DNA of 64,000 nucleotides from Arthrobacter zhaoxinii (GTDB lineage: Bacteria > Actinomycetota > Actinomycetes > Actinomycetales > Micrococcaceae). Position numbers and translations under genes: made by a program. The stretch spans positions 186,001 to 250,000 of the forward strand of contig NZ_JANFLT010000002.1 of the NCBI RefSeq assembly GCF_024385505.1, given 5' to 3'. Shown piece after piece: positions 4,233-26,275 of this stretch. The first letter of the stretch is position 1, and each line of letters opens with the position of its first letter. The notes under the pieces were generated by a model. The model searched no databases, had not been told where the DNA came from, and saw nothing but the letters and a program-made list of their open reading frames with translations.

Positions 4233-4262
4233 TCCCCAGCGGCTCCATAAAGAGGAGAGGCC

Positions 4263-5303: not shown

Positions 5304-5458
5304 TACTTTCCGCCGCCCCGAAGCCGCCGCAAAGCCGCCGTCAGGGGCGCCGTTGACGTCCCGGGGAATTCCACCGCAGCAGGAGCAGTTTCCTCTTTTG
5401 AGGGGCTGCCGGAGGACATCCGTGCCAGTCCAGCCGAACATCATCGAAGGGATACGCA

Positions 5459-6175
5459 ATGTCGACATTGGGAATCATTGGGAGCGGGAACATCGGATCC
5501 GCGGTTGCGCGGCTCGCGGTTGCGGCGGGCATGAACGTCGTTATTGCCAACTCGCGGGGACCTGAAACGCTCTCGGACCTGGTAGCCGAGCTCGGGCCGC
5601 TTGCCCAGGCCGGCACGGTGGAAGACGCCGCGAAACTCGGCGACGCCGTCGTGCTTTCCATTCCGCTGAACGCGGTTTCCGCTCTTCCGGACGGACTCCT
5701 GGCCGGCAAGATCGTCCTGGACACCAGCAATTACTACCCGTCCCGGGACGGGCGCATCGCCGAGCTTGATGACAGCACGGTGACCACCAGCGAACTGGTG
5801 CAGAGCCGGCTTCCCGGAGCGCAGTATGTCAAGGCCTTCAACAACATCCTGGCCCACCACCTTCCGCTTCTGGCCCGTCCCGCCGGGTCCGCTGACCGCT
5901 CCGCGCTGCCCATCGCCTCCGACGATGACACGGCCAAGGCTGAGGCGGCGGCGCTCATCGACGGGCTGGGCTACGACGTCGTCGACGCCGGCACCGTCGC
6001 CGAGAGCTGGAAGTTCGAGCCGGACTCCGCAGGCTACACCCGTCTTTACCTCGCGGATGCCAGCACACCCGACGACCAGCTGATGAGCTCGGATCCGGGC
6101 ACAACACCCAAGGAGAAGGTCGAATCCGCGCTGGCGTCGGCCACCCGGGTGAACGTTGCCGACCGTCTCTTCTAG
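5459..6175 (+). CDS. NADPH-dependent F420 reductase-like Rossmann protein
   Basis: A 238-residue protein beginning with the dinucleotide-binding loop IIGSGNIGSA (residues 6-15), then NSRG and the segment VLSIPLNAVSALP, a pattern typical of the F420:NADP oxidoreductase / NAD(P)-binding family (NpdG-like). GAAGG precedes the ATG. The family swaps hydride between NADP(H) and coenzyme F420 or acts on other substrates; which applies here cannot be told. The 155-bp gap from the upstream monooxygenase suggests a separate promoter, and a GC-rich hairpin follows. Confidence 0.72.
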   Translation: MSTLGIIGSGNIGSAVARLAVAAGMNVVIANSRGPETLSDLVAELGPLAQAGTVEDAAKLGDAVVLSIPLNAVSALPDGLLAGKIVLDTSNYYPSRDGRIAELDDSTVTTSELVQSRLPGAQYVKAFNNILAHHLPLLARPAGSADRSALPIASDDDTAKAEAAALIDGLGYDVVDAGTVAESWKFEPDSAGYTRLYLADASTPDDQLMSSDPGTTPKEKVESALASATRVNVADRLF

Positions 6176-6191
6176 GCGGTAGCTAGCTGGG

Positions 6192-6226
6192 TGCGCGGCG
6201 GCCGGGTGCGATCCGGGCGCCGCGCA
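6192..6226. terminator. Bidirectional GC-rich hairpin
   Basis: Perfect 9-bp arms TGCGCGGCG (6192-6200) and CGCCGCGCA (6218-6226) flank a 17-base loop between two convergent genes. There is no long T-run, which is usual for actinobacterial terminators. Confidence 0.45.
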
Positions 6227-6250
6227 GGCCGTCGCGCAGCAAACACCGCC

Positions 6251-6790
6251 TCAGCCCACGGCGTAGGTCACCCGGACTCCCCCGTTGTCGAGGCGCTGTT
6301 CCCGCAGCAGGCGAAGGTTCAGCGACAACCCGTCGGGCAGGGCCCGCGTGCCGCCGCCGGCAATGACCGGACAGATCACCAGCGACACAACGTCCACCAG
6401 GCCCATCCGCATAGCGCTCTTGGCCAGCTCCGGACCGCCGATCGTCACGTTTCCCGCGGCCTTGGCCCGCTCCACGGCATCCCGTGTCAGGGCAGATTCC
6501 AGGGTGGTCCGGCCGGTGTAAACCTCCGGGAGTGTGGAGGAAAACACCACCTTGGGCACCGCCGTCCAGGCCGCCGCGAACCGGTCCGTCCCCGGCGGCC
6601 CTCCGGCCAAGGCTGGATCGGTTTCCCAGACGGCCATGGTTTCGTACATCCGCCGCCCGTAGAGCACGGCGGCCGCGTCCTCCAGGTCCTCGGAATGTGA
6701 AACAAGAAAATCCTCGGTCGGCTCCAGCCAGGCGAAGTTACCGTCAGCGTCGGCGCTGTATCCGTCCAGTGAGCAGTTCATGGAGTACAT
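6251..6790 (-). CDS. Dihydrofolate-reductase/RibD-C-domain-like protein
   Basis: About 179 residues of the RibD C-terminal / bacterial DHFR superfamily. Visible are SLDGYSADADGNFAWL near the N-terminus, the substrate/NADPH region LYGRRMYETM, a glycine-rich NVTIGGPELA and ICPVIAGGGTRAL. These small NADPH-binding reductases are common in actinobacteria and rarely characterised. The ATG at 6790 is favoured since GAAGGG lies 12 bases upstream; ATG 6802 is also possible. It stands alone, convergent with the F420-reductase-like gene. Confidence 0.78.
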   Translation of the reverse strand: MYSMNCSLDGYSADADGNFAWLEPTEDFLVSHSEDLEDAAAVLYGRRMYETMAVWETDPALAGGPPGTDRFAAAWTAVPKVVFSSTLPEVYTGRTTLESALTRDAVERAKAAGNVTIGGPELAKSAMRMGLVDVVSLVICPVIAGGGTRALPDGLSLNLRLLREQRLDNGGVRVTYAVG

Positions 6791-6869
6791 CAGGGATCCC
6801 ATCCCTTCACTCAACCCCCGGGTCTTCCCGCTGCACAAGGGTGCCGGAACGCAGGGGTGTGCGGCGGTC

Positions 6870-8420
6870 CTACTTCGGCCGCGAGTACATCACCAGCAGG
6901 ACGCAGACCGCGGAAAAGCCCGCCTGCGCCAGGAGCAGCACCATAGGAACGTAGCCCAGGAACAGGCCCAGCAGCAGCGGCACCGCGGCCAGCAGAATGG
7001 TGTCCAGCCCCTGCGCCAGCGATCCGGTCTGCGCGGTGGGCACCGGCCCGAACACGGTTTCCACCGGCGGAGCGGTCCAGTCGGGCAGTGGCCGGTAGGC
7101 ACCCCGCACCGCCGCGGCGCCGAACCCGATCCCGGCGAGCGCACCAAGCCCGATCAACGCCGGAGTGCCCGTGCCCAGCAGCACCAGGACGGCGCAGAAC
7201 ACAGCGGACCAGAGTGCCAGGACGGCGGCGGGCAGGACCGTGCGGCTCAGCCGGACCAGTGCCGGGGACAGCGGCAGCAGGGCGTCCAGGCCCGGGGTGA
7301 TGGCGGTCTGCCGGGCCAGGGCACCCGGGGCCGGAACCACCGCGCAGACGGTGAGCAGGATGATGACCAGCTGCAGCGGCGCCGGCTGCTGGCCGGCGGT
7401 AAGCAGCACGGCCACGCACAGCAGGAGCAGCAGCACGGGACGCCCCCAGATCCCCGGGGTGCGCAGAAACGCGGTGGCATCGGCCCGCAGCAGCGCACTG
7501 AACGGAGTGCGCGCGCCCTTCGCGTACCAGCGCCGGGCACGGGAAGACGTCCTTCCGGGCGTCCCGGCGAACGCCCGTCCCAGCTCATTGGTGTCCATCA
7601 GGTACAGCGCGGCACCGGCATGCCCGGACACCCCGCCGCCGCGGATCAGTTCCCGGCCCGGGATCTCACCCATCCGCGTAAACACCAGCACTCCCAGTCC
7701 GACGACGGCGGCCAACGCCGCGGCGGCAGGCTCCAGTTCCCCGGCCGCGGCTCTCCGGGGCAGGAAACTCAGCAGGGCCAGCAGCACCAGCCCGCCGGCC
7801 GCACCCGCTGCTCCCGCCGGGAAACCGTTCCCGGCAGACTGCCGCAGCGCCGCCAGCAGCAGCGCGCAGGCCGCGGCCAACCCGAAGACGGCAGCGCCGA
7901 GGAACTGCCCTTCCACCGTTGCCGCCAGATCCGTAATGAAGCCGACCGGCAGATACAGGACCGCACCCGCGGCCCAGACCAGGCCCACCCGTCGGACCAG
8001 CCCTCCGACGAGAAACGGACGCCGCTCCACAGGCAGGCTCAGCCACCAGTACCCCTCGGCCGACGCGACGGCCACCGGCCCGAGCTTCCGCGCCCCCGCC
8101 ATCACAGCGGCCAGCGCGGCGAACAGCAGCACGGTCGCCGCGGCGCCGTCGGGCAGGGCGGTCCATTCCGCGGTCACAACGGTGCGGCGGCCGCCGGTGC
8201 CGGTCCCCAGGGCCTTCGCGACCTCGTTCCGCATCGCCAGCACCAGTCCCCCGGCCAGGGCGAGGATGGTCCCGGCGCCCAGCAGTGTGGCATAGGCATC
8301 CAGCAGCACATCCCGGACACGGACACTGCCGCGGCGGATGTCCCGCGAGGCAACGCGCGTATAGCGGGCCGGATTGAACTCCGTGGGTAATGGATCGGCA
8401 GACGCTTCGGTCCGGGCCAC
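6870..8420 (-). CDS. Multi-pass membrane protein, permease of an ABC exporter (DUF6297-like)
   Basis: A 516-residue protein rich in Leu/Ala/Val with roughly ten or more hydrophobic segments and short charged loops, for example VLLDAYATLLGAGTILALAGG. It is downstream of the ATP-binding gene with only 3 bases between that gene's stop and this ATG, so the two are one translational unit and probably one transporter. I think it belongs to the actinobacterial DUF6297 membrane family on general pattern, without a decisive motif. Substrate and direction are unknown; export is more likely because no binding protein is encoded beside it. Confidence 0.65.
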   Translation of the reverse strand: MARTEASADPLPTEFNPARYTRVASRDIRRGSVRVRDVLLDAYATLLGAGTILALAGGLVLAMRNEVAKALGTGTGGRRTVVTAEWTALPDGAAATVLLFAALAAVMAGARKLGPVAVASAEGYWWLSLPVERRPFLVGGLVRRVGLVWAAGAVLYLPVGFITDLAATVEGQFLGAAVFGLAAACALLLAALRQSAGNGFPAGAAGAAGGLVLLALLSFLPRRAAAGELEPAAAALAAVVGLGVLVFTRMGEIPGRELIRGGGVSGHAGAALYLMDTNELGRAFAGTPGRTSSRARRWYAKGARTPFSALLRADATAFLRTPGIWGRPVLLLLLCVAVLLTAGQQPAPLQLVIILLTVCAVVPAPGALARQTAITPGLDALLPLSPALVRLSRTVLPAAVLALWSAVFCAVLVLLGTGTPALIGLGALAGIGFGAAAVRGAYRPLPDWTAPPVETVFGPVPTAQTGSLAQGLDTILLAAVPLLLGLFLGYVPMVLLLAQAGFSAVCVLLVMYSRPK

Positions 8421-8423
8421 GGG

Positions 8424-9110
8424 TTACCGGCCCGCGATCTCGGCGGCGGCCAGTGCCGGTTCGATCTCCCGCACCTCGTCATCGATCAGCAGGCAGCGTC
8501 CGGCGGTGGCCAGGAGCAGCGCGGGGTCGTGGGTCACGAGCAGGACCGTGCCGCCGTCGTCGGCGTACCGGCGGATCCGCTCCCCCACCCGTTCGCGCAT
8601 CACCGGGTCCAGGCGCTGCTCGGGTTCGTCCAGGATCAGCAGGGAGGAGGGCCGGATCAGGGCCGAGGCGAGCAGCAGCCGGCGGCGCTGGCCGGAGGAG
8701 ACGGACTCCGGAACGGCGCCTGCGCGCTCCTGCAGGCCGAAAAAGTCCAGTTCCGCGTCGACGGCGGCATCCGGGTCCGCGACGCCGTGGCCGCGGGCAA
8801 CCAGCTGCAGATGTTCCCGCAGCGACAGGGAGGGGAAGAACGCGTCCTCGTCGAAGAGGGCGGCCACCTGCCGGCGGAACGGAATGGCGTCCTCGTTGGC
8901 GGGCAGCCCGTGCACGCGCACCTCGCCGTCCAGCATCAGCTGCTTCCCGGCGATGGTGCGGGCGGCGGTGGATTTGCCGGCGCCGTTGAAGCCCACGACG
9001 CCGAGGACCTCCCCCGCATCCGCATGCGCGGTGATGGCGCCGCACACGGGCGCCCCGGTGTACCCCACCAGCAGATTCGAAATCTCGAGCACGGCCCCCG
9101 GAGCAGTCAT
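8424..9110 (-). CDS. ABC transporter ATP-binding protein
   Basis: A 228-residue nucleotide-binding subunit. Walker A is GFNGAGKST (about residues 39-47), the ABC signature is the variant SSGQRRRLL and Walker B is LLILDEP. The signature SSGQR in place of LSGGQ is typical of drug/peptide exporters with separate permeases. It is the first gene of a two-gene unit with the multi-pass membrane protein (3-base gap). It energises that permease at the inner face of the membrane. Substrate unknown. Confidence 0.87.
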   Translation of the reverse strand: MTAPGAVLEISNLLVGYTGAPVCGAITAHADAGEVLGVVGFNGAGKSTAARTIAGKQLMLDGEVRVHGLPANEDAIPFRRQVAALFDEDAFFPSLSLREHLQLVARGHGVADPDAAVDAELDFFGLQERAGAVPESVSSGQRRRLLLASALIRPSSLLILDEPEQRLDPVMRERVGERIRRYADDGGTVLLVTHDPALLLATAGRCLLIDDEVREIEPALAAAEIAGR

Positions 9111-9175
9111 GGCCCTAATCTAGCGGGCCGGGAAGGCCTCCGCGTGGAGCGACTTCAGCCCGATGACGGACCGCG

Positions 9176-10033
9176 TTACAAACCCGGCTCCCTCCGGGCC
9201 AGGGCGATGACCCGCTCGGCGGCGCGCACCATCGCAACGTCGATGAAGGTGCCGTCCGCGAGCACGAAGGCGCCGGTGCCGTCGGCTGCGGCGGTTTGCA
9301 CGCGGTCGACGATGTGCTGGGCCCGGGCCACTTCCGAGGGACCCGGGGTGAAGACGCGGCGGATGACGCCGAGCTGGCGCGGATGCACGGCGGTGCGCCC
9401 GCCGAAACCGAGGCCGCGGCCGGTGCGGCAGCTGGCTTCCAGTCCGGCGGCGTCCACGACGTCGGCGTACACCGCCATCAGCGGGGCGGGCAGGCCTGCA
9501 GCAGCTGCGGCATTGACGATGCGGCTGCGCGACCAGGCCAGGCCCGCCTCTCCGGCCGGGCCGGCGGGAACCCCGAGTTCGGCGCGCAGGTCCGCTTCTC
9601 CGGTCGCGATCGAGGCCACCCCTGCGCCGGCAATCGCGAAGGCCCGCTCGACCGCCAGCGCCGATTCGAGCAGGGCGTGGACCTCACGTCCCGGCAGCGC
9701 GGCGCGGAGGGCGGCGACGTCGTCGGCCGACTGCGTCTTCGGCAGCCGGACCCCGAAGGACGGAGGGAGCTCGGCTACCGCAGCCAGGTCGGCGTCGTGC
9801 GCGGAGGATCCGAGAGCGTTCACCCGCACCTGGACTGCGGGCGCGGCCGCGCCGGAGGCCTCCCACAACGCCGCGAAGTCCTTCAGCGCCGCACGGGCCT
9901 CCACCTTGCGGGCGGCGGCCACGGCGTCTTCGAGGTCGACGATCACCGCGTCCGCGCCCGCGCGCAGCGCCTTCCCGAACCGTTCGGGACGGTCCGCGGG
10001 TGCGTAGAGTGCAACCATGATCGGCCGGGTCAT
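9176..10033 (-). CDS. HpcH/HpaI-family (CitE-like) aldolase/lyase
   Basis: A 285-residue TIM-barrel protein of the CitE / malyl-CoA lyase group. Motifs seen are VIVDLEDAV near residue 30 (acidic Mg-binding region), RVNALGS, IATGEADLRAELG with the metal-binding acidic residues, and GGRTAVHPRQL. Relatives cleave or condense 3-hydroxyacyl-CoA thioesters such as malyl-, citramalyl- or HMG-like CoA. Its ATG overlaps the stop of the CaiB gene by 4 bp (ATGA), so the two are made together: CaiB would form the thioester and this enzyme would cleave it. It is the last gene of the LacI-controlled operon. Confidence 0.85.
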   Translation of the reverse strand: MTRPIMVALYAPADRPERFGKALRAGADAVIVDLEDAVAAARKVEARAALKDFAALWEASGAAAPAVQVRVNALGSSAHDADLAAVAELPPSFGVRLPKTQSADDVAALRAALPGREVHALLESALAVERAFAIAGAGVASIATGEADLRAELGVPAGPAGEAGLAWSRSRIVNAAAAAGLPAPLMAVYADVVDAAGLEASCRTGRGLGFGGRTAVHPRQLGVIRRVFTPGPSEVARAQHIVDRVQTAAADGTGAFVLADGTFIDVAMVRAAERVIALARREPGL

Positions 10034-11217
10034 CCGATGCTTCCGTTCCCGCGCAGCGCGGCGATTTCGCCGGCAGAGTACCCCAGCTCGGCCAGCACGG
10101 CGTCCGTGTCCGCCCCGGGTGCCCGCCCGGTGAAGGCGATCGTCGCCTCATCCCGCGACATCCGGAACAGCGGTCCCTGCATGGCGATGTCACCCAGGTC
10201 CGCGTCTTTGATGCGGTGGATGGTTCCGAGCGCGTTGAACTGCGGATCGGCAACAATGTCCGAGGGGTCGTAGATGGGCGCGACGGCGGCGTCCGCTGCC
10301 TCGAACGCGGCGATGACCTCGTCGCGGGAATGCCGGGCGATCCACGAGCCGACGGCGTCGTCGAGGAGGTCGGCGTGCTCAGCGCGGTCGGCGCCGGTGG
10401 CGAACCACGGTTCGTCGGCGAGGTCGGGCCGGCCGACGAGGGCGACGACGCGCTCGGCAATGGACTGTGCACTCGTCGACACCGCCACCCAGGACCCGTC
10501 GCCGGTGCGGTAGGCGTTGCGCGGCGCGTTGTTGACCGAGCGGTTGCCCGTGCGCGGCTGCACGGTGCCCAGCGAATCCCAGCGCGTGATCTGCGGACCC
10601 AGCATCGCAAGGATCGGCTCGATGATCGCGACGTCGACCTCCTGGCCCCTGCCGTCCCGGTCCCGGGCGTGCAGGGCGACCATGACCGCGTAGGCGGTCG
10701 CGAGGGAGGCGACGCCGTCGGCGAGCCCGAACGGCGGAAGCGTGGGCGGTCCGTCCGGTTCGCCGGTGGAGGACGCGAAGCCGCTCATTGCCTCGGCCAG
10801 CGTGCCGAAGCCCGGCCGGTGTCGATACGGGCCCATCTGACCGAACCCGGTGACCCGGGCAAGGACAAGCCCGGGGTTGTCCGCGGACAGGGCTGCGTAG
10901 TCCAACCCCCAGCGTTCGAGCGTGCCGGGCCGGAAGTTCTCAATCACCACGTCCGCGGTCCGGGCCAGGCGCAGAAACGCGTCACGTCCGCCCTCCGTGT
11001 GCAGGTCGATGGCCACGGTGCGCTTGTTGCGGCCGAGTGTTTTCCACCAGAGGTTCTGCCCGTCCTTGCTCGGTCCGTGGCCGCGTGCCGGGTCCGGCCG
11101 GTTTGGATGCTCGACCTTGACGACGTCGGCACCCATGTCGCCCAGGTGCATCGCTGCCAGCGGGCCGGCAAACAGGGTGGAGGCGTCCACCACCCGCAGG
11201 CCGTTGAGCGGATTCAT
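10030..11217 (-). CDS. CaiB/BaiF-type (class III) CoA-transferase
   Basis: A 395-residue family III CoA-transferase of normal length. The N-terminus GLRVVDASTLFAGPLAAMHLGDMGADVVKVE and the segment VVIENFRPGTLERWGLDY are family hallmarks, and the catalytic Asp lies in the conserved EVDVAIIE. Such enzymes move CoA from a donor such as succinyl-CoA to carnitine, oxalate, malate, mesaconate and similar acids. It overlaps by 4 bp with both neighbours: the two-domain glycosidase-like gene upstream and the CitE-like lyase downstream. The pairing suggests activation of a hydroxy or dicarboxylic acid released from a sugar conjugate. Confidence 0.9.
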   Translation of the reverse strand: MNPLNGLRVVDASTLFAGPLAAMHLGDMGADVVKVEHPNRPDPARGHGPSKDGQNLWWKTLGRNKRTVAIDLHTEGGRDAFLRLARTADVVIENFRPGTLERWGLDYAALSADNPGLVLARVTGFGQMGPYRHRPGFGTLAEAMSGFASSTGEPDGPPTLPPFGLADGVASLATAYAVMVALHARDRDGRGQEVDVAIIEPILAMLGPQITRWDSLGTVQPRTGNRSVNNAPRNAYRTGDGSWVAVSTSAQSIAERVVALVGRPDLADEPWFATGADRAEHADLLDDAVGSWIARHSRDEVIAAFEAADAAVAPIYDPSDIVADPQFNALGTIHRIKDADLGDIAMQGPLFRMSRDEATIAFTGRAPGADTDAVLAELGYSAGEIAALRGNGSIG

Positions 11218-13184
11218 CCGGTTTCCCCTTCGTCAGTGGCCGGGTCGGTGCAGATGCGGAAACCGATCGACGTGGACGCGTCCAGGCCGAGTCCGGGCAG
11301 CAGCAGCTTCGCGCTGAACTCCGGATGCTGCACTCCGCCGTCGAAGTACCAGTTCGACCCCTCGCAGCGGTAGGCGCTGCCGCCTTTGAGCATGACGAAG
11401 CGGGTACGGCCGTCGGAGTGCTCGGATTCGGTCCAGTTCCACACCTCCGGGGTGCGGCGGACGAAGCCCGGCCGGATTGCCGCGAGCTGCCACTCGTCCT
11501 CCGAGGGGAGGCGTCCTCCGGCCCAGGCCGCGTACTCGCGGGCCCGGGCGAACGTCACCTTAGTGGCCGGACGCCCGGGGTCGCGGGCCTCCGTGTGCTC
11601 GCCGATGGCGTCCAGGAAACGGGCGTATTCGGCCTCGGTCACTTCGGCCGCGGCGACCCGGACCGGGTGTGGAATCACGACGGAGCGGTCCAGCGTGCGC
11701 TGGTCGTGAAGCCGGGGGGACAGCGGCTTCCACTCATCGACGTAGGGTGCGCCGTCGTACATGCCGGTTTCCCGCATCCGGAACCGCACGGTCAGCGTGT
11801 ACTGGCCGGGCGGAACCGTCACCGTGTCCATGGGCGGAACCGTATCCGCACGAAGGAATGCCGGTGCGGCCGGACCGGTCCGAGGCGGCGCACTTCTCCG
11901 CCGAGCGGAGCGGTGCCGGAAGGACGCATCGTGCTGGGCGGGTTCGCCGGCGAGAGCGGCCTGAACCCTGCCGATCTCCCCGGGGACCTCGGCGCCGGGG
12001 CGAACCCGCACCGCAGCGGCTATACCGTTTGCAGGCACGGTAACCGTGTCGGCGGTGTCCCCGACGTGCAGCGCTGCCCAGCCGCTGCCGGCCAACCGGT
12101 ACTCGGCGTCCGACCCGGACGTGTTCGCCAGCAGCAGCAGTGTGGCGCCGTCCAGCTCGAAGGTCGACCCGACGAGCGGGGCGGTGGTGACGGTGAGCGG
12201 CGTCCACTCGCCCTCCACCAGCCAGCGGTGGAATCCGCGCTGGACGGGAAGCATGCGGCGCAGCGTCGCGGCATCGCGGTCATTCCAGCCGACCCAGGAA
12301 CCGAAGACGACCTCCCACACCACAATGCCGACGCCGTTGAGCCAGGCCGAGCGGAGTTCTTCGGCGTGGTTCCGGTGCCAGCGGCGGATGTGATGCTGCA
12401 TGTGGCGGCGTTCGAACCACCGTGCACGGAGGACGCCGGGGGTGTCGGAGTCGGCGAACCACTGGGCCCAGGACAGTGTGTGGTCGGCGATCCGACCGGT
12501 CGTGAGCTTTGATTCGCCCTCCAGGCCGATGCCGGGCCGTGCAGCATCCAGGACCTCGACGAGCGTCCGGTCGGCCTTCTTCAGCGTGTCGAGGAAAACA
12601 CTGTCGGCACCGATCCGGCGTACGGCCGCCGCGAGCTCAGTGGCGTCGTCGCCGCCGCGGCGCGTTCCCGTGTCCCACGGCATGTAGGCCAGGAACACTG
12701 CGACGCCGGCGGCGCGCAGTTCGGCGGCAGCGTCGGCAAGGCCCGGCACGTTGTAAAAGTCCCACTGGTTGCGGTTGTCGATGCCGATGACCGGATAGGC
12801 GTGCCACAGCACAATGCCGTCAAGGCCGCCGAAGCGCCCGCGGGCGTCGGCAAGGAAACGCCCGGGCGTGAACCGCTGCGCTTCGAAGTCGAAAAACAGC
12901 TCGTCCCACAGCCAGACCTGCGCCACGGCGAAGCACCGGCTCGCCCAGGCGGACGCGCCGTCGTCGTACCGGCTGGGACCGAGGTGACGGGCCCACGCGC
13001 CGTTCCGCCAGGCGGTGAGCTGGGCGCGCCACCGGGCCAGATCGCCGAAGTCGGCCGGAGCCGCGAAAATCTTCGCGTCGTCGAGGGTAAGTGCCGCATC
13101 CCCGACCGCCAGATCCGTCTCGAGCGGCACCCGGGTGGGCAGGTCGAATTCGCGGGGCCGCAGGGGGTCGAACCCACCACTCAT
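11214..13184 (-). CDS. Two-domain protein: putative glycosidase-like barrel plus FGE-sulfatase-like C-terminal domain
   Basis: 656 residues from ATG 13184 (AAAGGA 8 bases upstream); the open frame extends further upstream but only as a shadow of the previous gene. The N-terminal 400 residues look like a (beta/alpha) barrel: GGLDGIVLWHAYPV, then GVAVFLAYMPWD and DSVFLDTLKKA, with an Asp at a typical strand end, then GIGLEGESK. The C-terminal 180 residues match the FGE-sulfatase/SUMF1 fold: AAAEVTEAEYARFL, VTFARAREYAAWAGGRLPSE, EWQLA, NWTES, KGGSAYRC and SIGFRIC. Only one cysteine is visible where true formylglycine-generating enzymes carry a pair, so formylglycine formation is unlikely. It lies between the ADP-ribosylglycohydrolases and the CoA-transferase and probably acts on the sugar part of the imported compound. 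Confidence 0.6.
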   Translation of the reverse strand: MSGGFDPLRPREFDLPTRVPLETDLAVGDAALTLDDAKIFAAPADFGDLARWRAQLTAWRNGAWARHLGPSRYDDGASAWASRCFAVAQVWLWDELFFDFEAQRFTPGRFLADARGRFGGLDGIVLWHAYPVIGIDNRNQWDFYNVPGLADAAAELRAAGVAVFLAYMPWDTGTRRGGDDATELAAAVRRIGADSVFLDTLKKADRTLVEVLDAARPGIGLEGESKLTTGRIADHTLSWAQWFADSDTPGVLRARWFERRHMQHHIRRWHRNHAEELRSAWLNGVGIVVWEVVFGSWVGWNDRDAATLRRMLPVQRGFHRWLVEGEWTPLTVTTAPLVGSTFELDGATLLLLANTSGSDAEYRLAGSGWAALHVGDTADTVTVPANGIAAAVRVRPGAEVPGEIGRVQAALAGEPAQHDASFRHRSARRRSAPPRTGPAAPAFLRADTVPPMDTVTVPPGQYTLTVRFRMRETGMYDGAPYVDEWKPLSPRLHDQRTLDRSVVIPHPVRVAAAEVTEAEYARFLDAIGEHTEARDPGRPATKVTFARAREYAAWAGGRLPSEDEWQLAAIRPGFVRRTPEVWNWTESEHSDGRTRFVMLKGGSAYRCEGSNWYFDGGVQHPEFSAKLLLPGLGLDASTSIGFRICTDPATDEGETG

Positions 13185-13206
13185 GCGTTCGTCCTTTCGA
13201 TGGCGG

Positions 13207-14598
13207 TCATAACGTTCCCTGGGATAACCGGAGGGTCCGTTCGGCCAGTTCGTGGATGGACCGCTCCGCCCCGCCCGGGAGGGAGGTGGCGATGCGGTCC
13301 TGAAGCGGAGCGGTCCAGGCCTCGTCGATCGCCCCGGCGCCCAGGAGCCCGCCGACGACGGACCCGACGGTCGCGCCGACCGAGTCGGTGTCCCATCCGC
13401 CCGCGACGGCGAGGGCGACGGCGGCGTCGAAGTCACCGCCGTAGGCCTGAAGGGCGCAGGCGGCGAGTGCGGCGTTGTTGAGGGTGTGGACCCAGTGCAT
13501 CCCGGCGAACTCCGTGTGGAGTACGTCGAGTGCGGCAGCAGCGGTCAGTGAGCCTTCGGCCAGGGACCGGCCGGTCCCGCGGCCGAGGTGCACCGCGGCG
13601 GCGAGGCGCGATGCCGGCGGCAGGACGGTGTCGGCCGCGTCCAGGGCGGCGTCGGCGGTGGTTTCGGTGAGGGAGGCGGAGCAGAGCGCCGCGGCCCACA
13701 TCTCCCCGTAGATGCCGTTGCGGGTATGGCTGAGCCGGGCATCGGTCCAGGCCGAGGCGGCGGCGGCGCGGATATCTCCGGGATGTGCCCAGCCGTGCAC
13801 GTCGGCGCGGATGAGCGCGCCGATCCATTCACGGAACGGATTGTGGTGCCGTGCCGTGTCGGGGATGGTCCGGGCGTCGAGGAGGTTCCGGTAGGCCGCG
13901 CGTTCGGCGGTGAAGATCCTCCCTGCGGGCAGCTCCGCCAGCCACGCGCCCGCGATGTGCTCCGTCGTCAGGTTCCCGCCGTGGGTCTCGATCAGCTCGA
14001 GCGCGAGGATGGCGAAGTTCAGGTCATCGTCTTCGGGCATGCCGTGGATGTTCTCGGCCAGCGACGTCGGGGCGGAGCGGCGGTTCCACGGCCAGCGCTG
14101 CGCGAGGTCCCGGGACAGCCCTGCCGCGGTGAAATAGGTGTGGATCGGCCAGTTCCCGGTGGCCCGGGCGAGCTGTTCGATCCCTTCGCGGGGAATCTTC
14201 TCCACGGGCTTTCCCAGCAGGCAGCCCGCCGACCGGCCCAGCCAGGCCCCGTGCACCCGTCCGAAGGACACGGATGCCGCCGGGGGCGGGGCGGGCGGCG
14301 GTGGTGCGGGCGGGACGGGCGATGGCAGCAGGGCGGCGATGTCGTTCCACTCGTCCGGTTCCTCCGCGCTCGGCACCTGCAGAATCTGCAGCTCATCAAG
14401 CAGGGTGCGGGCGAGGACGCGCATCGCGGGCGGGGCCGGGATGTCGCCTGCCCCGGACGGCGTGGGCCGGATCGGGCCGCCGGCGTCCGTCCACCGCTGC
14501 TCGATCGGCGCGATGCCGCTCTCCGCAACGCCCTGCTCGCGGAGTGCGGTCAGCTCGCCGGCGACCAGGTCCTCCGGCTGCGCCCAGGTCAGTCGCAT
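13207..14598 (-). CDS. ADP-ribosylglycohydrolase (DraG) family protein with N-terminal extension
   Basis: 463 residues. The first 110 residues form an uncharacterised extension ending in a proline-rich linker. The DraG-type all-helical domain begins at VHGAWLGRSAGCLLGKPVE. Di-metal site motifs are visible: EDDDLNFAILALE and, near the C-terminus, GGWDTDSVGATVGSVVGGLLG. The family hydrolyses N- or O-glycosidic bonds to ribose-like sugars. It overlaps the upstream DraG paralog by 10 bp and is followed 22 bp later by the glycosidase-like gene. In this importer operon, metabolite breakdown is more likely than protein de-ADP-ribosylation. Confidence 0.8.
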   Translation of the reverse strand: MRLTWAQPEDLVAGELTALREQGVAESGIAPIEQRWTDAGGPIRPTPSGAGDIPAPPAMRVLARTLLDELQILQVPSAEEPDEWNDIAALLPSPVPPAPPPPAPPPAASVSFGRVHGAWLGRSAGCLLGKPVEKIPREGIEQLARATGNWPIHTYFTAAGLSRDLAQRWPWNRRSAPTSLAENIHGMPEDDDLNFAILALELIETHGGNLTTEHIAGAWLAELPAGRIFTAERAAYRNLLDARTIPDTARHHNPFREWIGALIRADVHGWAHPGDIRAAAASAWTDARLSHTRNGIYGEMWAAALCSASLTETTADAALDAADTVLPPASRLAAAVHLGRGTGRSLAEGSLTAAAALDVLHTEFAGMHWVHTLNNAALAACALQAYGGDFDAAVALAVAGGWDTDSVGATVGSVVGGLLGAGAIDEAWTAPLQDRIATSLPGGAERSIHELAERTLRLSQGTL

Positions 14599-15764
14599 GC
14601 CGCGTCCTCCCTTCCCAGCAGCGTGTGCAGTGCCGCGGCCCGCTGCTCGGCGCGGTCCGCGTCGGCCTTCGCCACGTCGCGCACCACCTCCGTCATCACG
14701 CCCACCACTGCGTCGAGATCGAGGCGGCTGGCGGTGGTGACGTCCGCCAGCCAGTCGGGGGGCACGGCGTCGATCCCGTGCAGTCCGCCGCAGACGGCCC
14801 CGGCCATCGCCGCGATGGAGTCCGCGTCGCGGCCGTAGTTGACGGCGTCGAGCACCGACGCCCGCAGGTTCCCGCCGCGGGCCGCCACGAAGCCGAGCGC
14901 TACGGGCAGCTCTTCAATGGACTTGGTGCGCGAGGGCAGGCGGGCGTCCATTGCCGGGGCCCGGTAGTGGTCCCCCACGGTGTCGAACGGTGCGACGGCG
15001 GCGCGCACGATCCGGGCGACGTCGCGGGGGTCCTCCGATCCGCCGTCGGCAAGGAAGGCGTCGACGGCGTCGAAGACGGCGCGGATCGCTGCGGCGGTGC
15101 CGTCGTGGGCCAGCTCCAGCACGGCTTCGCGCACGTGGGCGACGGTGGCCCCGGGGGCGGCGGATGCTGCCACCGCCGCCGCGAACACCCCTGCGGCCTC
15201 GCGTCCGTAGGAGGACTGGTGGGCGCCGGCGAGGTCGATGGCCTCGGCGTAGGCACCGCGCGGGTCGCCGATGTGCACGAGCCCGACCGGCGCCATATAC
15301 ATGGTGGCGCCGCAGTTGACGATGTTGCCCACGCCGGCCTCGCGCGGGTCCGCATGGCCGTAGTGCAGCTTCGCGACGATCCATTTCTCCGCCAGGAAAA
15401 CGCGCTGCAGGATCAGTGCGGAGTCTTCGAGTTCGGGAACCCAGCGGCGTTCGCCGATCATCAGCGGCACCAGATCGCCGGCGACGTCGTAGGCGTCGAG
15501 GTGGCGGCGCCGCTTGGCGTACACCTCTACGAGGGCGTGGGTCATGAGGGTGTCATCCGTGATGTGCCCGTCGCCCTTGTGGTACGGCGCGATGGGCCGT
15601 GCGGTTTTCCAATCGGAAAGGAACGGGCCCACGATTCCCTCGACCCGGCCGCCGTGGCGCTCCTCGATCTGCTCAGGGGTCCAGCCCTCCGTCGCACCGC
15701 CCAGGGCATCCCCGACGGCAGCGCCTGCCAGCACTCCGGCCACCCGGTCCCGCAACAGGTTCAT
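14589..15764 (-). CDS. ADP-ribosylglycohydrolase (DraG) family protein
   Basis: 391 residues starting at ATG 15764, which has GAGGAG 5 bases upstream; the GTG at 15770 falls inside that site and is rejected. The DraG domain starts at once with RVAGVLAGAAVGDALGG. Metal-binding motifs are GHITDDTLMT (about residue 67) and NYGRDADSIAAMAGAVCGGLHG near the C-terminus. It lacks the long N-terminal extension of its downstream paralog, and the two have clearly diverged. It follows the sugar-binding lipoprotein by 69 bp. It probably hydrolyses a glycosidic bond in the imported compound; substrate unknown. Confidence 0.85.
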   Translation of the reverse strand: MNLLRDRVAGVLAGAAVGDALGGATEGWTPEQIEERHGGRVEGIVGPFLSDWKTARPIAPYHKGDGHITDDTLMTHALVEVYAKRRRHLDAYDVAGDLVPLMIGERRWVPELEDSALILQRVFLAEKWIVAKLHYGHADPREAGVGNIVNCGATMYMAPVGLVHIGDPRGAYAEAIDLAGAHQSSYGREAAGVFAAAVAASAAPGATVAHVREAVLELAHDGTAAAIRAVFDAVDAFLADGGSEDPRDVARIVRAAVAPFDTVGDHYRAPAMDARLPSRTKSIEELPVALGFVAARGGNLRASVLDAVNYGRDADSIAAMAGAVCGGLHGIDAVPPDWLADVTTASRLDLDAVVGVMTEVVRDVAKADADRAEQRAAALHTLLGREDAACD

Positions 15765-15833
15765 TCCCACTCCTCGGTTGCCTCTGAGAGCGTCGACGGT
15801 TCGGGGGCGGACCGTCGGCCCGCCCCCGAATCA

Positions 15834-17135
15834 TCAGCCGGCGATATCCGTCCAGCCGTCGGAGAGCTGGGCCGACAGCTCCTCGCTGGTGATTTGATCG
15901 GCCAGGTACTGCTGGTACGCGGGGGTCGCGATGGTGTCCTTCCACTCCGTGTACTTCTCCACCTTGAGGAACGGCGGTCCCTCGAGTCCTTCTCCGGAGG
16001 CCAGCACCTGGGTCCAGGCCGGGTCATCCGCGGCCAGGGTCTCCACCTCGGTGCGGGCCGAGCCGGACGAGGGGATCAGCGCGTCGGCGTAGGCGATCGA
16101 GGCGAGGTTCTCACCGTTCATAAAGAAGTTGAGGAACTCGGCCGACTCCTCCACATACTCGGAATCGATGTTCACCGAATAAGTCTGCGGATTGGCCGCC
16201 TGAATGGCACCGGCTGAGCCCTCCAGCGGCGGCAGCGCCACCCAGTTGAAGCCCTCGGGGGCATCGGCGGCGATGTTCGCCGCCTGGAAGGAACCCTGCA
16301 CGGTCATGGCGACCTTGCCGCCGTAGAACGAGGCCAGCACGTCCGAGCCGGACTGCGTCAGCGACGTGGGCTCAATCGACTTGTCCGTGTAGGCCATCTC
16401 GTGAATGAGTTCCGGCACGGCAAGCTCACCGTCGCCGACCTCGATCGAAGCCTCGGCGCCTTCGCCGTCGAAGAACCCGCCGTCGAAGCCGAGCGACAGG
16501 CTCATCATCGCCGCCGTCGGCGACGCGAGACCCCAGCCGAGGCCGTAGTTGCCGCCCGTGGTTGTTGCCCGGGCTATCTCCTGCAGCTCCTCCCACGTCA
16601 TCGTCTCCCCGCTGGGCACCTCCACCCCGGCGGCCTCAAGGAGGTCGGCATTGGCGAAGACCATGTAGGACTGCAGCGTCGACGGGTACGCGATGATTTC
16701 CCCGTCCTGGGTGACGGAATCCCAGACGCCCTCTGAAATGTCCGACTTCAGGTCGGCGTCGATATGGTCCGTCAGATCGGCGAGGTAGCCGTCGGACGCG
16801 AAGGAGACGATGGAGCTGGCCTCGTAGTGGATGATGTCCGGTGCGGTTCCGCCGGCGAACTGGGTGATGAGCTTGTCGAACGTCCCGTCCCATCCGGCCT
16901 GGACGATCTCGACCTGGACGTCTTCGTTTTCCGCATTCCAGGTGTCGACGATCGTCTTCACGGCTTCCTGGGTCGCGGGTTGGTCGGACAGCGACTGGAA
17001 CTGGAGGGTGACAGCGCCGTCGCCGTCGCCCTCGCTGTCCGATCCATTGCTGGCGCTGCCCTGCTGGCAACCGGTCAGCGCAAGGGCGACCGCGCCCGCA
17101 AACGCGACGGCGCCGATGCCTCGGATTCTCTTCAT
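15834..17135 (-). CDS. Sugar ABC transporter substrate-binding lipoprotein
   Basis: 433 residues. A basic start, hydrophobic stretch and lipobox LTGC (Cys23) mark a lipoprotein signal; an acidic Ser/Gly/Asp-rich tether follows. The mature part is a family 1 extracellular solute-binding protein (FDKLITQFAGGTAPDIIHYE, DLTDHIDADL, SFYGGKVAMTVQGSF, PSSGSARTEVE). It captures an oligosaccharide or glycoside outside the cell for the two permeases encoded just upstream. It sits 46 bp after the second permease. The ligand is not predictable by eye. Confidence 0.9.
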   Translation of the reverse strand: MKRIRGIGAVAFAGAVALALTGCQQGSASNGSDSEGDGDGAVTLQFQSLSDQPATQEAVKTIVDTWNAENEDVQVEIVQAGWDGTFDKLITQFAGGTAPDIIHYEASSIVSFASDGYLADLTDHIDADLKSDISEGVWDSVTQDGEIIAYPSTLQSYMVFANADLLEAAGVEVPSGETMTWEELQEIARATTTGGNYGLGWGLASPTAAMMSLSLGFDGGFFDGEGAEASIEVGDGELAVPELIHEMAYTDKSIEPTSLTQSGSDVLASFYGGKVAMTVQGSFQAANIAADAPEGFNWVALPPLEGSAGAIQAANPQTYSVNIDSEYVEESAEFLNFFMNGENLASIAYADALIPSSGSARTEVETLAADDPAWTQVLASGEGLEGPPFLKVEKYTEWKDTIATPAYQQYLADQITSEELSAQLSDGWTDIAG

Positions 17136-17181
17136 GATGCTCGCTTTCTCAGTGGTGATGCGTGGAGTGGTTCGTGCGGGG

Positions 17182-18021
17182 TCAGCCTTTGACTGCGCCG
17201 GCGAGCATTCCGCCGGTGAGTTTTCTCTGCAGGAGGGTGAAGATGATGAGCGACGGAATCGTCGCCAGGATCGCTCCTGCCGCCAGCGGGCCGAGCTGCA
17301 TCTGCCCCTCCGCGCCCAGGAACGAGCGCAGCGCGATCGGAAGCGTGTAGAACTCGGGGCTCTGCAGCAGGACGAGGGCGAGGAAGAATTCGTTCCATGC
17401 CGAGACGAAGGTGAACATGGCCGTCGCGACGAGTCCCGGTGCGAGCAGCGGAAGGATGATCGTCCGCAGGATCGTCATGCGCGACGCTCCGTCCATCTCT
17501 CCGGCTTCCTCGAGTTCGGTCGGTATCGCGGCAACGTAGCCCTGCAGCATCCACAGGGTGAAGGGCAGGGTGAAGGTGACGTACACCAGGATCAGGCCGA
17601 ACAAAGTGTCATTGAGCTGGATCGAGCGCAGCACCAGGAACAGCGGGATGATGATGAGGATCGACGGAAAGACCTGGCTGGTCAGGATCCATACCGTTCC
17701 GGCGGCGCGCAGCCGCCCCTTGAGGCGGGCGAGGGCGTAGGCCATCGGCATCGACAGCAGCACGGTGATGACCATCGTCGCGACTGAGACCAGGAGCGAG
17801 TTGCCGGCGGCGGGCAGGAGGTTCTGCCGCTCCAGCGCGGAACGGTAGTTGCTGAAATCCCACTCCGCGGGCAGAAGGTTGACGGCCAGGGAGTTCAGCT
17901 CTCCGGAGGATTTGAAGGACGCGGACAGCAGCCACAGCAGCGGGAACCCCAGGAAGAAGAGGAACCCGGCGAGGGCGACGTACATCAGCGCCGTCGCGTA
18001 CCAGGGGCGTCTGGTGGTCAT
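17182..18021 (-). CDS. Carbohydrate ABC transporter permease (MalG type)
   Basis: 279 residues with six hydrophobic segments. The cytoplasmic EAA loop that docks the ATPase is visible as ELEEAGEMDGASRMTILRTIILPLLAPGL. Length and pattern match the MalG/CUT1 group. Its ATG overlaps the stop of the partner permease by 4 bp. No ATP-binding gene is present in the operon, so it presumably shares a general sugar ATPase (MsiK/MsmK type) encoded elsewhere, as is common for CUT1 importers in actinobacteria. Confidence 0.92.
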   Translation of the reverse strand: MTTRRPWYATALMYVALAGFLFFLGFPLLWLLSASFKSSGELNSLAVNLLPAEWDFSNYRSALERQNLLPAAGNSLLVSVATMVITVLLSMPMAYALARLKGRLRAAGTVWILTSQVFPSILIIIPLFLVLRSIQLNDTLFGLILVYVTFTLPFTLWMLQGYVAAIPTELEEAGEMDGASRMTILRTIILPLLAPGLVATAMFTFVSAWNEFFLALVLLQSPEFYTLPIALRSFLGAEGQMQLGPLAAGAILATIPSLIIFTLLQRKLTGGMLAGAVKG

Positions 18022-18968
18022 GAACGTGCTCCCTTGGTCTGGCGGAACTGGTTGACGAGGTACAGCGACAGGATCAGCAGGATCGCGATCACGAGCACGT
18101 CGCCCATCGCCGACGCGTAGCCGATTTCACGGTTGCGGAAGGCTTCGAGGTAGGTGAACAGCGGCGGAATCATGGTGCGCCCGCCGGGGCCGCCTTCGGT
18201 CAGCACATAGATCAGGCCGAAGGAATTGAACTGCCAGATGAAGTCCAGGGCGGTCACGGCAAGGATGATGGGGCGAAGGCCCGGGAGGGTGATGTGCCAG
18301 AACCGGCGGAACGCTCCGGCGCCGTCGACCGCCGCGGCCTCATGCTGCTCGGTGGAAATGGACTGCATGCCCGCCAGCAGCAGCACGGTGGTCTGCGGGA
18401 TGCCCGCCCAGACGCCCACCACGATGACAGCGGGCAGCGCGGTGGAGAAGTCCCCGAGCCAGTTGACCCCGGGAATGCCCACCGCTTCGAGCGCACCGTT
18501 GAGGGGCCCCGAGTTGGGGTTGTAGATCATCCGCCACACGATGGCGATGACCACCGGCGGCATCGCCCAGGGGATCAGTGCCAGGACCCGGGTGAGGCCC
18601 TTCAGACGGAGATCACTGTTGAGCAGCAGCGCCAGTCCCATTGCACAGACGAGCGTGAGGAGCGCGACCGCCCCGGCCCACACGACGCCGATGCCGAACG
18701 AGCCCCAGAAACGGTTGTCGCCGAAGAGCTCGATGAAGTTCCCGAAGCCGATGAAGTTGATCTCGGCGTTCCGGCCCAGCGTGGCATCGGTGAAGCCCAA
18801 GGCCACGCCGCTCACCAGCGGAATGACGGAGAAGATGATGATGGGAAGCAGGGCGGGAATCACCAGGACGATGGCTTCGCGCCGCTGCGCGCGGGCGCGG
18901 TGACCGACCCGCTTCACGGCGCGCGGCGTCTCCGCCGCCTCGCGCCTGGTTTTCGTGGCGGTGCTCAT
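18018..18968 (-). CDS. Carbohydrate ABC transporter permease (MalF type)
   Basis: 316 residues with a basic N-terminal tail and six transmembrane segments. The EAA motif is EQHEAAAVDGAGAFRRFWHITLPGL. The pattern IPWAMPPVVIAIVWRMIYNPNSG is typical of MalF/UgpA CUT1 permeases. It overlaps both lacI (4 bp, upstream) and the MalG-type gene (4 bp, downstream), so the regulator and transporter are translationally linked. It forms the membrane channel with the MalG-type partner. Confidence 0.92.
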   Translation of the reverse strand: MSTATKTRREAAETPRAVKRVGHRARAQRREAIVLVIPALLPIIIFSVIPLVSGVALGFTDATLGRNAEINFIGFGNFIELFGDNRFWGSFGIGVVWAGAVALLTLVCAMGLALLLNSDLRLKGLTRVLALIPWAMPPVVIAIVWRMIYNPNSGPLNGALEAVGIPGVNWLGDFSTALPAVIVVGVWAGIPQTTVLLLAGMQSISTEQHEAAAVDGAGAFRRFWHITLPGLRPIILAVTALDFIWQFNSFGLIYVLTEGGPGGRTMIPPLFTYLEAFRNREIGYASAMGDVLVIAILLILSLYLVNQFRQTKGARS

Positions 18969-20026
18969 CGGGCTGGCCTCTCGTTGTTGAGGTCGGGTGC
19001 TTCGGCGTCGGATGTTCCGGCGTCGTTCGGGAGGCGCGCATGGGATGACCCGCGGACCACCAGCGCGGGGGCGACGGCGACCGTGTGGGCCGGGCGTTCC
19101 GGTTCCGCGATGCGCGCGAGCAGCAGCTCCGCCGCAACCCGGCCGCGTTCTTCGGCGCCGAGGTCGACGCTCGTGAGGCCCGGCCGGATGATGCCTGCCA
19201 GTTCCGTGTTGTCGACGCCGGTGACGGTGATGTCTCCGGGGACGGCCAGGCCAAGGTCTTCGGCGGCCCGGATCGCGCCGATGCCGATCAGGTCATTCGC
19301 CGCAACGATGGCGTCGGGGCGGTGGTCGTCGTGCAGGGCGCGGCGCGCGGCGTCGTAGCCGGCCGTGATTGTGAAGTCGTCGGCGTCGACGCTGCGTGCC
19401 GAGATGGCCGGGTGCGCCACCACCGCCGCAGCGAATCCGTCGCGGCGGAAGGCACCCGGGGTGGTGTCGCTGGGTCCGTTCACGAAGGCGAGGTCGCCCC
19501 GTCCCTCCGCAACGAGGTGTTCCACAACAAGCCGCATGGCTGTGAAGGAGTCAGCGGGCACGGTGTCGAGGCTGGCGTCGTCGGGCAACCGTCCGAGAAC
19601 GACCACCGGCACCGGCGCCTTGGCGAGTACCGCGAGGAGTTCATCCGTGACGCGGAGCGGCGAGAGGATCATACCGTCGACATATCCGCGGCCGAGATCG
19701 CGCACCACGTCGACGGATGAGGAAGACGTGCCCGTGGACGACATCACCAGCCGGTAGCCGGACGCCGAGACAACGCGTTCGATCGCGGTCATCATCTCGA
19801 TGTAGACCGGGTTGCCGATGTCGGCGACGGCATAGGCGAGCTGGTTCGTGCGGCCCCGCTTCAGCGACTGCGCCGTCGCGTCCGCCACATAGCCCAGTTC
19901 CTCAGCGGCGTGCTGCACCTTCGCAACGGTCTTGGCGCTCGCGGCCTGTCCGTTGAGCGCCCGTGAAGCGGACGCCACGGAAACGCCGGCATGCGCGGCG
20001 ACCTGTGTGATGGTGACCCGGACCAA
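18965..20026 (-). CDS. LacI-family transcriptional repressor
   Basis: 353 residues from a TTG start at 20026, with AAAGG 6 bases upstream; a longer reading from 20077 would place the operator inside the gene. The N-terminus VRVTITQVAAHAGVSVASAS RALNG is a classic LacI HTH plus hinge, followed by a periplasmic-binding-protein-like effector domain (YAVADIGNPVYIEMM, DGMILSP, DAIVAANDLIGIGAIRA). It is the first gene of the nine-gene sugar operon and overlaps the next gene by 4 bp. A LacI-type operator lies just upstream, so autoregulation with release by the imported sugar is likely. Confidence 0.92.
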   Translation of the reverse strand: MVRVTITQVAAHAGVSVASASRALNGQAASAKTVAKVQHAAEELGYVADATAQSLKRGRTNQLAYAVADIGNPVYIEMMTAIERVVSASGYRLVMSSTGTSSSSVDVVRDLGRGYVDGMILSPLRVTDELLAVLAKAPVPVVVLGRLPDDASLDTVPADSFTAMRLVVEHLVAEGRGDLAFVNGPSDTTPGAFRRDGFAAAVVAHPAISARSVDADDFTITAGYDAARRALHDDHRPDAIVAANDLIGIGAIRAAEDLGLAVPGDITVTGVDNTELAGIIRPGLTSVDLGAEERGRVAAELLLARIAEPERPAHTVAVAPALVVRGSSHARLPNDAGTSDAEAPDLNNERPAR

Positions 20027-20042: not shown

Positions 20043-20058
20043 TTGTAAACGTTTCCAG
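20043..20058. promoter_or_regulatory. LacI-type operator upstream of the nine-gene operon
   Basis: TTGTAAACGTTTCCAG is an imperfect palindrome around the AAACGTTT core typical of LacI/GalR operators, with 6 of 8 positions symmetric. It lies 17 bp before the lacI start codon and is the natural target of LacI autoregulation. Confidence 0.65.
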
Positions 20059-20102
20059 CTGTGAGCCAGACCACCATGCCACCGGGTTCGCGGCGGTGTC
20101 AA

Positions 20103-20417
20103 CTAGTGCAGGGTTTTCAGTCCGACCACGCCGCCGACAATCATGGCCAGGAACAGGATCTTCAGCAGGGAGACGGATTCCGCGCCGGTGGCCATGCCGT
20201 AGACCACGGTCAGGGTGGCGCCGATGCCCACCCAGACGGCATACGAGGTTCCCAGCGGCAGTTCCCGCATGGCGTAGGCGAGCCCGGCCATGCTGGCAAT
20301 GAGGGCGGTGACGAAGATGGCGGACGGCCAGAACCGGCTGAATCCCTGCGACCTGTCCAGAGCCGTGGCCCAGACCGCTTCCAGAACGCCGGACAGCACC
20401 AGAACAATCCATGACAT
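20103..20417 (-). CDS. gdx: Guanidinium exporter of the SMR family (Gdx/SugE)
   Basis: A 104-residue four-helix small multidrug resistance protein beginning MSWIVLVLSGVLEAVWATAL. Glu13 in the LEAVWA motif is the conserved proton/guanidinium site. The patterns FSRFWPS and LPLGTSYAVWVGIGA distinguish the Gdx/SugE group from EmrE. ATG 20417 is preceded by GGGAGA; upstream in-frame codons belong to the riboswitch. It exports guanidinium in exchange for protons as a dual-topology dimer. The upstream guanidine-III riboswitch independently confirms the substrate. Confidence 0.93.
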   Translation of the reverse strand: MSWIVLVLSGVLEAVWATALDRSQGFSRFWPSAIFVTALIASMAGLAYAMRELPLGTSYAVWVGIGATLTVVYGMATGAESVSLLKILFLAMIVGGVVGLKTLH

Positions 20418-26233: not shown

Positions 26234-26275
26234 GGGGGTCCTCACTTCGTTGTGCCGTAGGTGCCCGCCGATCGT

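Follow-up and report, generated by a model that had tools for sequence, protein, structure and literature searches.

The 64,000-nucleotide stretch of the Arthrobacter zhaoxinii genome analyzed here (positions 186001–250000 of its contig; hereafter the window) contains what we class as a catabolic operon of the LacI–CUT1 kind, with a set of enzymes that is unusual and strongly conserved. Nine intact open reading frames (ORFs), all on the minus strand, run from 20026 to 9176 and encode, in order, a LacI-family regulator, two permeases and the binding protein of a CUT1 importer, two proteins of the ADP-ribosylglycohydrolase family (DraG1 and DraG2), a barrel protein ending in a domain that resembles formylglycine-generating enzyme (FGE), a class III coenzyme A (CoA) transferase (CaiB) and a putative acyl-CoA C–C lyase (CitE). 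DraG1, DraG2, CaiB and CitE form the core of the set; the importer and a ribokinase-like kinase, PfkB, often accompany it, and the FGE-like protein is an extra. The DraG, CaiB and CitE genes very probably serve one pathway.

A profile survey of 394 genomes of the class (E ≤ 1e-20 for the FGE-like protein, 1e-60 for DraG1 and 1e-130 for CaiB) gave matches to these three proteins in 20, 62 and 106 genomes, respectively. DraG1 lies no more than 10 kb from CaiB in 58 of the 62 DraG1 carriers, and 38 of those 58 have no FGE-like gene. Twenty of these 38 loci were fetched. DraG1, DraG2, CaiB and CitE are present in every one, with CitE always on the strand of CaiB, while PfkB (13/20) and the importer genes (9/20) vary, and it is for this reason that we place the first four at the core. 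The FGE-like gene, which the initial annotation had taken as an integral member of the set, was rejected as a core gene on its count of 20 in 394 genomes and its absence from all 20 of the fetched loci. The importer stands as described at the window; as an always-linked part it was rejected, since its permease genes occur in just those nine loci. Fifteen neighbourhoods were fetched of the 20 FGE-like matches: 14 retain the gene order through CaiB and CitE, and in the other (L137) the FGE-like gene stands alone. A tree of 70 CaiB rows clusters the 51 DraG-linked CaiBs with three label changes; after shuffling the mean is 16.8, and none of 500 shuffles came as low as three. One group of loci has two further DraG genes, four in total. 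In L219, L220, L225, L228 and L236, an importer-free DraG–CaiB–CitE cassette lies between apparent glutamate synthase and lgt/trp genes, and at least four of these five carry two additional DraG-type genes. The set, importer included, is retained in genomes of just 1.8 and 1.3 Mb (L138 and L233).

Conservation was also counted among loci chosen by the FGE-like gene. A one-genome-per-species scan with this protein confirmed 174 relatives; the best 80 of the 174 cover 28 named genera and 16 named families, 79 of them placed in Actinomycetota (one in Acidimicrobiia) and one unplaced. With L007, L009 and L010 added, they make a set of 83 loci in which the FGE-like gene is present by construction. 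Presence of the other genes was counted by tblastn; ORF maps drawn apart from this count still contain some antisense ORFs. On the same strand we found CaiB and CitE in 82 loci each, DraG2 in 80, the permeases, the binding protein and DraG1 in 78 each, LacI in 77 and PfkB in 68. The single locus without CaiB and CitE (L071) is missing the importer and DraG genes too, and the contigs of L019, L029, L044 and L083 are short. Neither the window nor L007, L009, L011 or L028 has PfkB, but Arthrobacter sp. Bz4 (L058) does. Within the family, 5 of 197 genomes encode the FGE-like protein itself, as do 4 of 12 listed genomes of the genus, the host's included; the closest named relative found is that of Arthrobacter yangruifuii (85%).

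The neighbourhood comparison, which had been named beforehand as the observation that could part CaiB and CitE from the first seven genes, did not refute the reading; the two stay with the DraG genes in 82 of 83 loci, in 58 of 62 DraG1 carriers and, for CaiB, in three of six rhizobial loci. The latter were found outside the class. DraG1 occurs in 7 of 198 genomes drawn from the phylum, all seven within the same class, and a tblastn search of plasmids returned seven records, one from Nonomuraea and six from Rhizobiales. All six rhizobial loci carry LacI, two permeases, DraG1, a longer DraG2 and a UgpC ATPase. The importer–DraG1–DraG2–UgpC series is followed by a ribokinase gene in Agrobacterium (L242), by CaiB in Ensifer (L244) and by CaiB and CitE in Sinorhizobium (L248) and Rhizobium (L247, a copy with broken frames); L243 and L246 have neither CaiB nor CitE downstream, and L246 has a ribokinase-type gene upstream on the other strand. 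The six loci thus hold three CaiB, two CitE and two ribokinase-type genes. Identity to the window proteins is 44% for the Ensifer CaiB and 28% for the CitE piece of L247, and we therefore read the DraG–CaiB–CitE link as old, or as having arisen more than once. The L247 copy (8700–15309) is on a plasmid of Rhizobium sp. RCAM05350, with frame breaks in DraG1, DraG2 and CaiB.

Intergenic spacings of the operon in the window are, in order, −4, −4, 46, 63 or 69, −10, 22, −4 and −4 bp, and ATGA overlaps join four of the eight junctions; the same-strand arrangement, the spacing range of −10 to +69 bp and the four overlaps given by the initial annotation were all reproduced from the ORF coordinates, and its gene families (LacI, CUT1, two DraG, CaiB, CitE) agree with the Pfam and NCBIfam results. 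The operator that it had placed ahead of the operon was located as TGTAAACGTTTCCA at 20044–20057, 17 bases ahead of position 20026, and is the sole site with at most one mismatch to TGTAAACGTTTMCA in the 3,506,218 bases (about 3.5 Mb) of the host genome. The LacI-family regulator (18965–20026, minus strand as for all nine genes; Pfam LacI and Peripla_BP_3) has RbsR as its top NCBIfam models, under cut-off. We assume a TTG start at 20026, which is preceded by a purine-rich stretch; the listed ORF extends to an ATG at 20077, and that start would place the operator within the gene. The two permeases follow at 18018–18968 and 17182–18021 (Pfam BPD_transp_1, 8.7e-23 and 2.2e-22), and the binding protein at 15834–17135 (SBP_bac_1, 3.1e-31). 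The closest solved structures of the latter are mostly sugar-binding proteins, and the attempt to name a ligand from them failed. With a LacI regulator, two permeases, a binding protein and a palindromic operator ahead of the first gene, the locus has the features of a LacI-repressed CUT1 sugar operon. Two unlinked genes elsewhere in the host genome score above the cut-off of the UgpC model, and the importer may be served by a shared ATPase of this type.

An operator-type site stands upstream of the first gene in 59 of the 83 loci (script count). L009, which is stored in the opposite orientation, also carries one, and L029 has one ahead of an esterase gene; at the scan threshold none was seen in 22 of the 83, and none was found inside the operon across the 83 loci. 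Simple promoter and terminator scans of the window gave no count above that of shuffled sequence. In G159 (L007) the operon has lost its neighbouring LacI gene but keeps a perfect operator, TGTAAACGTTTACA, at 4202–4215, 79 bases ahead of the first permease start at 4295.

Both DraG proteins match PF03747 (ADP_ribosyl_GH): DraG1 at 14589–15770 (start 15770 or 15764) with 1.3e-44, and DraG2, which has an extra N-terminal part, at 13207–14598 with 1.8e-39. T71-D72-D73-T74 and D315/D317/S318 of DraG1 are conserved in at least 97% of 79 sequences, and E189-D190-D191-D192 and D403/D405 of DraG2 in at least 97% of 77. We take these paired acidic motifs, at both ends of the domain, to be the metal-binding residues of the ADP-ribosylhydrolase (ARH)/DraG family. 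The structure of DraG2, the one modelled, has the all-helical ARH fold (predicted local distance difference test, pLDDT, 90.6); its best structural match is MJ1187 (template modelling, TM, score 0.80 by target), and it also resembles ARH3 and DraG. In several Kribbella loci a long opposite-strand insert lies between DraG1 and DraG2 (L037:5300–7932 and similar); in L037 it reads by eye as a PhoD-like phosphatase and a discoidin-type domain. The PfkB partner was scanned in L010, where it scores 285.1 bits to the bacterial ribokinase model TIGR02152, and an unlinked ribokinase-like gene in the host genome scores 255 bits.

CaiB (10030–11217; CoA_transf_3, 3.5e-119) and CitE (9176–10033; HpcH_HpaI, 3.3e-29) likewise retain residues that we presume to be catalytic: D167 of CaiB in at least 97% of 83 sequences, and E123, D148 and D265 of CitE in at least 97% of 82. 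Against the named succinate-glutarate, formyl-CoA, mesaconate and carnitine CoA-transferase models the best score of CaiB is 234.9 with a cut-off of 750, and on such scores it is assignable to the class III family only. The top NCBIfam model for CitE is RipC (NF038242), at 139.7 bits with a cut-off of 375; by this measure we assign it to the CitE superfamily and not as RipC. The attempt to identify the acid from the two enzymes failed, and it cannot be named because both lie far under every curated cut-off. Twenty CaiB neighbourhoods were fetched separately. One of them (L201) is a DraG set; the remaining 19 have CaiBs of at most 71% identity, eight of them with CitE adjoining on the same strand. 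Genes near these relatives encode MmgE/PrpD proteins (Pfam-checked in L199 and L200), a flavin adenine dinucleotide (FAD) enzyme of flavocytochrome/tricarballylate-dehydrogenase type (L205), an amino-acid-type binding protein (L200), a putative cyclase (L199), RraA-like proteins with a TRAP DctM permease (L206) and an allantoinase/dihydroorotase-type amidohydrolase (L208). Because MmgE/PrpD, FAD-enzyme, RraA-like and TRAP genes accompany CaiB relatives, they suggest a di- or tricarboxylic acid.

The accessory FGE-like protein (11214 to about 13184) is listed as an ORF of 740 residues, the first 84 or so of which overlap DraG2; this part is probably not translated, with the true start near 13184. 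A model built from 56 sequences (pLDDT 87) shows a barrel, a strand-rich middle and an FGE-like end. The initial annotation had described a two-domain glycosidase/FGE-like protein. Its C-terminal half was confirmed by an FGE-sulfatase match (1.9e-10, C-terminal part only). The glycosidase half is a weak inference from the fold: Pfam assigned no family to the barrel part, glycosidase families included, Foldseek returned many GH13-type and some other barrels at TM scores of 0.29–0.35 by query, which are distant matches, and naming a glycosidase family by either route failed. D199, E222 and E224 are invariant in the 56 sequences, and a glycosidase-like role is plausible on the model. FGE requires a catalytic cysteine pair for its activity. 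No cysteine of the FGE-like domain is invariant or 90% conserved among the 56 sequences, and an FGE-type oxidase role is not supported for want of such a pair. A secreted esterase (PF00756) lies beside the cluster in 7 of 99 loci by clustering (Pfam-checked in L024 and L087); a further one, in L068, was identified by reading. The L029 esterase gene (4245–6941, minus) lies on the opposite strand behind CitE, with its own perfect operator copy at 6960–6973.

A tentative model for the operon can now be proposed, to which we give slightly less than an even chance: an inducible catabolic operon in which a sugar conjugate is hydrolysed, the sugar passes to a kinase, and the acid goes through CoA activation and C–C cleavage. 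We infer every reaction in it, and likewise the sugar, the acid and the conjugate. Until bound by an inducer, the LacI protein would occupy the single operator. The CUT1 importer, with a shared ATPase encoded elsewhere, would take up a small sugar conjugate, and DraG1 and DraG2, as small-molecule glycohydrolases, would cleave the anomeric bond of a furanose, ribose being the likeliest; a ribose-type sugar is suggested because the PfkB of L010 scores near the ribokinase cut-off. The sugar would be phosphorylated by PfkB, or in the host by the unlinked ribokinase-like enzyme. The freed acid, probably hydroxydicarboxylic or related, would be turned by CaiB into its CoA ester, which CitE would split to yield acetyl-CoA together with an oxo acid. 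The FGE-like barrel protein would be optional, perhaps a trimming glycosidase, and the secreted PF00756 esterases suggest that the sugar–acid link is perhaps an ester. Import and splitting of a sugar–acid conjugate, as first supposed for this operon, remains the simplest reading; what had been overlooked is the PfkB of most relatives (68/83). Bacillithiol-type glucosaminyl malate, glycosides of hydroxymethylglutarate (HMG) and methanopterin fragments, considered as conjugates, were set aside for want of evidence.

Since the set spans genomes from 1.3 Mb to 7–11 Mb and, in part, rhizobial plasmids, its substrate is probably widespread in soil or on plants. It is possible rather than probable that we are dealing with a previously undescribed pathway, present in at least two phyla, in which DraG enzymes, rather than removing ADP-ribose from proteins, are dedicated to nutrient breakdown: they would release a ribose-type sugar and a hydroxy(di)carboxylic acid from a natural conjugate, and the acid would pass to CaiB and CitE. 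If so, the conjugate would be widespread in soil or plants and so far unrecognised as bacterial food. A conserved cassette of two to four DraG genes with an acid-CoA module gives the DraG family a testable second role, and the single-operator regulator and the binding protein are direct handles for finding the substrate.

Several observations weigh against the conjugate model. At this level of similarity none of the enzymes has a known substrate, the NCBIfam scores of CaiB and CitE being far below equivalog cut-offs, and malate by itself would require no CoA step. The L010 PfkB lies just under the TIGR02152 cut-off of 299.65, and the gene is absent from the window. A permease was not found in 11 of the 20 fetched loci without the FGE-like gene, so that import is not shown there, and in five importer-free loci examined closely the cassette, read by eye, sits among apparent housekeeping genes. 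Most loci have no secreted esterase. In 4 of the 62 genomes CaiB and DraG1 fall on separate contigs, CaiB–CitE stands apart from DraG1 in G326 and G508 (L217, L218), and 11 of the 19 non-DraG CaiB loci have no same-strand CitE beside CaiB. Three of the six rhizobial loci lack CaiB; at the Nonomuraea locus (L245) LacI, importer, DraG genes and PfkB come with no match to CaiB or CitE. The pairwise distances of the nine proteins in 67 complete loci correlate at 0.82–0.95 (CaiB and CitE at 0.82–0.92), figures that carry no control for species relatedness.

Among other explanations, the one that survives best, although we consider it unlikely, is that the cell salvages a modified nucleoside or a derivative of ADP-ribose, taken up or made internally. 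The DraG proteins would then be ribohydrolases and CaiB–CitE would degrade an acid from the other half of the molecule. The ribokinase-like partner fits this account, as do the 11 importer-free loci, the amidohydrolase gene beside a CaiB relative in L208 and the yegTUV genes of E. coli, which, according to PMC10819704, pair a nucleoside-symporter-like protein with a DraG-type protein and a sugar kinase. The importer, where present, is however of the CUT1, oligosaccharide type; there is no base-opening enzyme among the ten conserved genes, and a secreted esterase fits poorly. A linear route, in which one sugar is converted to a sugar acid that CaiB activates and CitE cleaves, with no separate acid branch, is more improbable still. 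The single upstream operator for the whole set would suit it, and an FAD-dependent oxidoreductase gene follows the operon in 15 Kribbella loci, but the ten conserved genes include no dehydrogenase or oxidase, and the FGE-like domain, without an invariant cysteine, could hardly supply the oxidation.

DraG-family genes are usually annotated as removers of ADP-ribose from proteins. By family name and fold the DraG proteins could be regulators that strip ADP-ribose from the proteins of an otherwise ordinary sugar operon; each set has two DraG genes, or four in one group, which makes this very unlikely, as does the lack of an ADP-ribosyltransferase among the ten conserved genes, the rest of the genome not having been searched for one. 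That CaiB and CitE are chance neighbours outside the pathway finds some footing in CaiB genes, partly with CitE, in other contexts and in the Nonomuraea and some rhizobial DraG loci without CaiB, but after the locus counts (82/83), the genome survey (58/62), the CaiB tree, the overlapping start and stop codons and the lack of an operator site in between, it can scarcely be upheld.

In the window the operon is flanked by genes that read by eye as an ABC ATPase (8424–9110) and a SugE-like small transporter (20103–20417). In L007 the same two genes adjoin each other (16747–18642) with the operon to one side, and because of this changed position we suggest that the operon is mobile. Further along the window, 24335–26245 encodes a phenol-hydroxylase-type flavoprotein (FAD_binding_3 and Phe_hydrox_dim).

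No described pathway with this gene set was found in the open-access literature, which excludes most subscription papers, in keeping with the initial annotation. Among NCBIfam models CitE comes nearest to the itaconate degradation lyase RipC, and among solved structures to 8khl; its RipC score is far under the cut-off and there is no itaconyl-CoA hydratase among the nine genes. The fold and acidic motifs are shared with the ADP-ribosylhydrolases DraG, ARH3 and MJ1187, whereas identity of DraG2 to the listed ARH/DraG structures is 13–20% and the genes stand in a catabolic operon. The FGE-sulfatase match relates the C-terminal domain of the accessory protein to the FGE/EgtB fold; unlike FGE, the domain is partial, has no invariant cysteine and is fused to a triosephosphate isomerase (TIM) barrel. 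The nearest published analogue found is E. coli yegTUV (YegT, YegU and YegV, with the regulator GgaR/YegW), a repressed operon that also combines a transporter, a DraG-family protein and a sugar kinase, and whose gene functions are called unknown in PMC10819704. Its transporter is of the MFS type, it has one DraG protein, and it has no CaiB or CitE. Actinobacterial CUT1 operons with a local LacI share the regulator, two permeases, the binding protein, the missing ATPase with UgpC-type ATPases elsewhere, and the single operator. In the operon described here, DraG-type hydrolases and an acid-CoA module replace their classical glycosidases.

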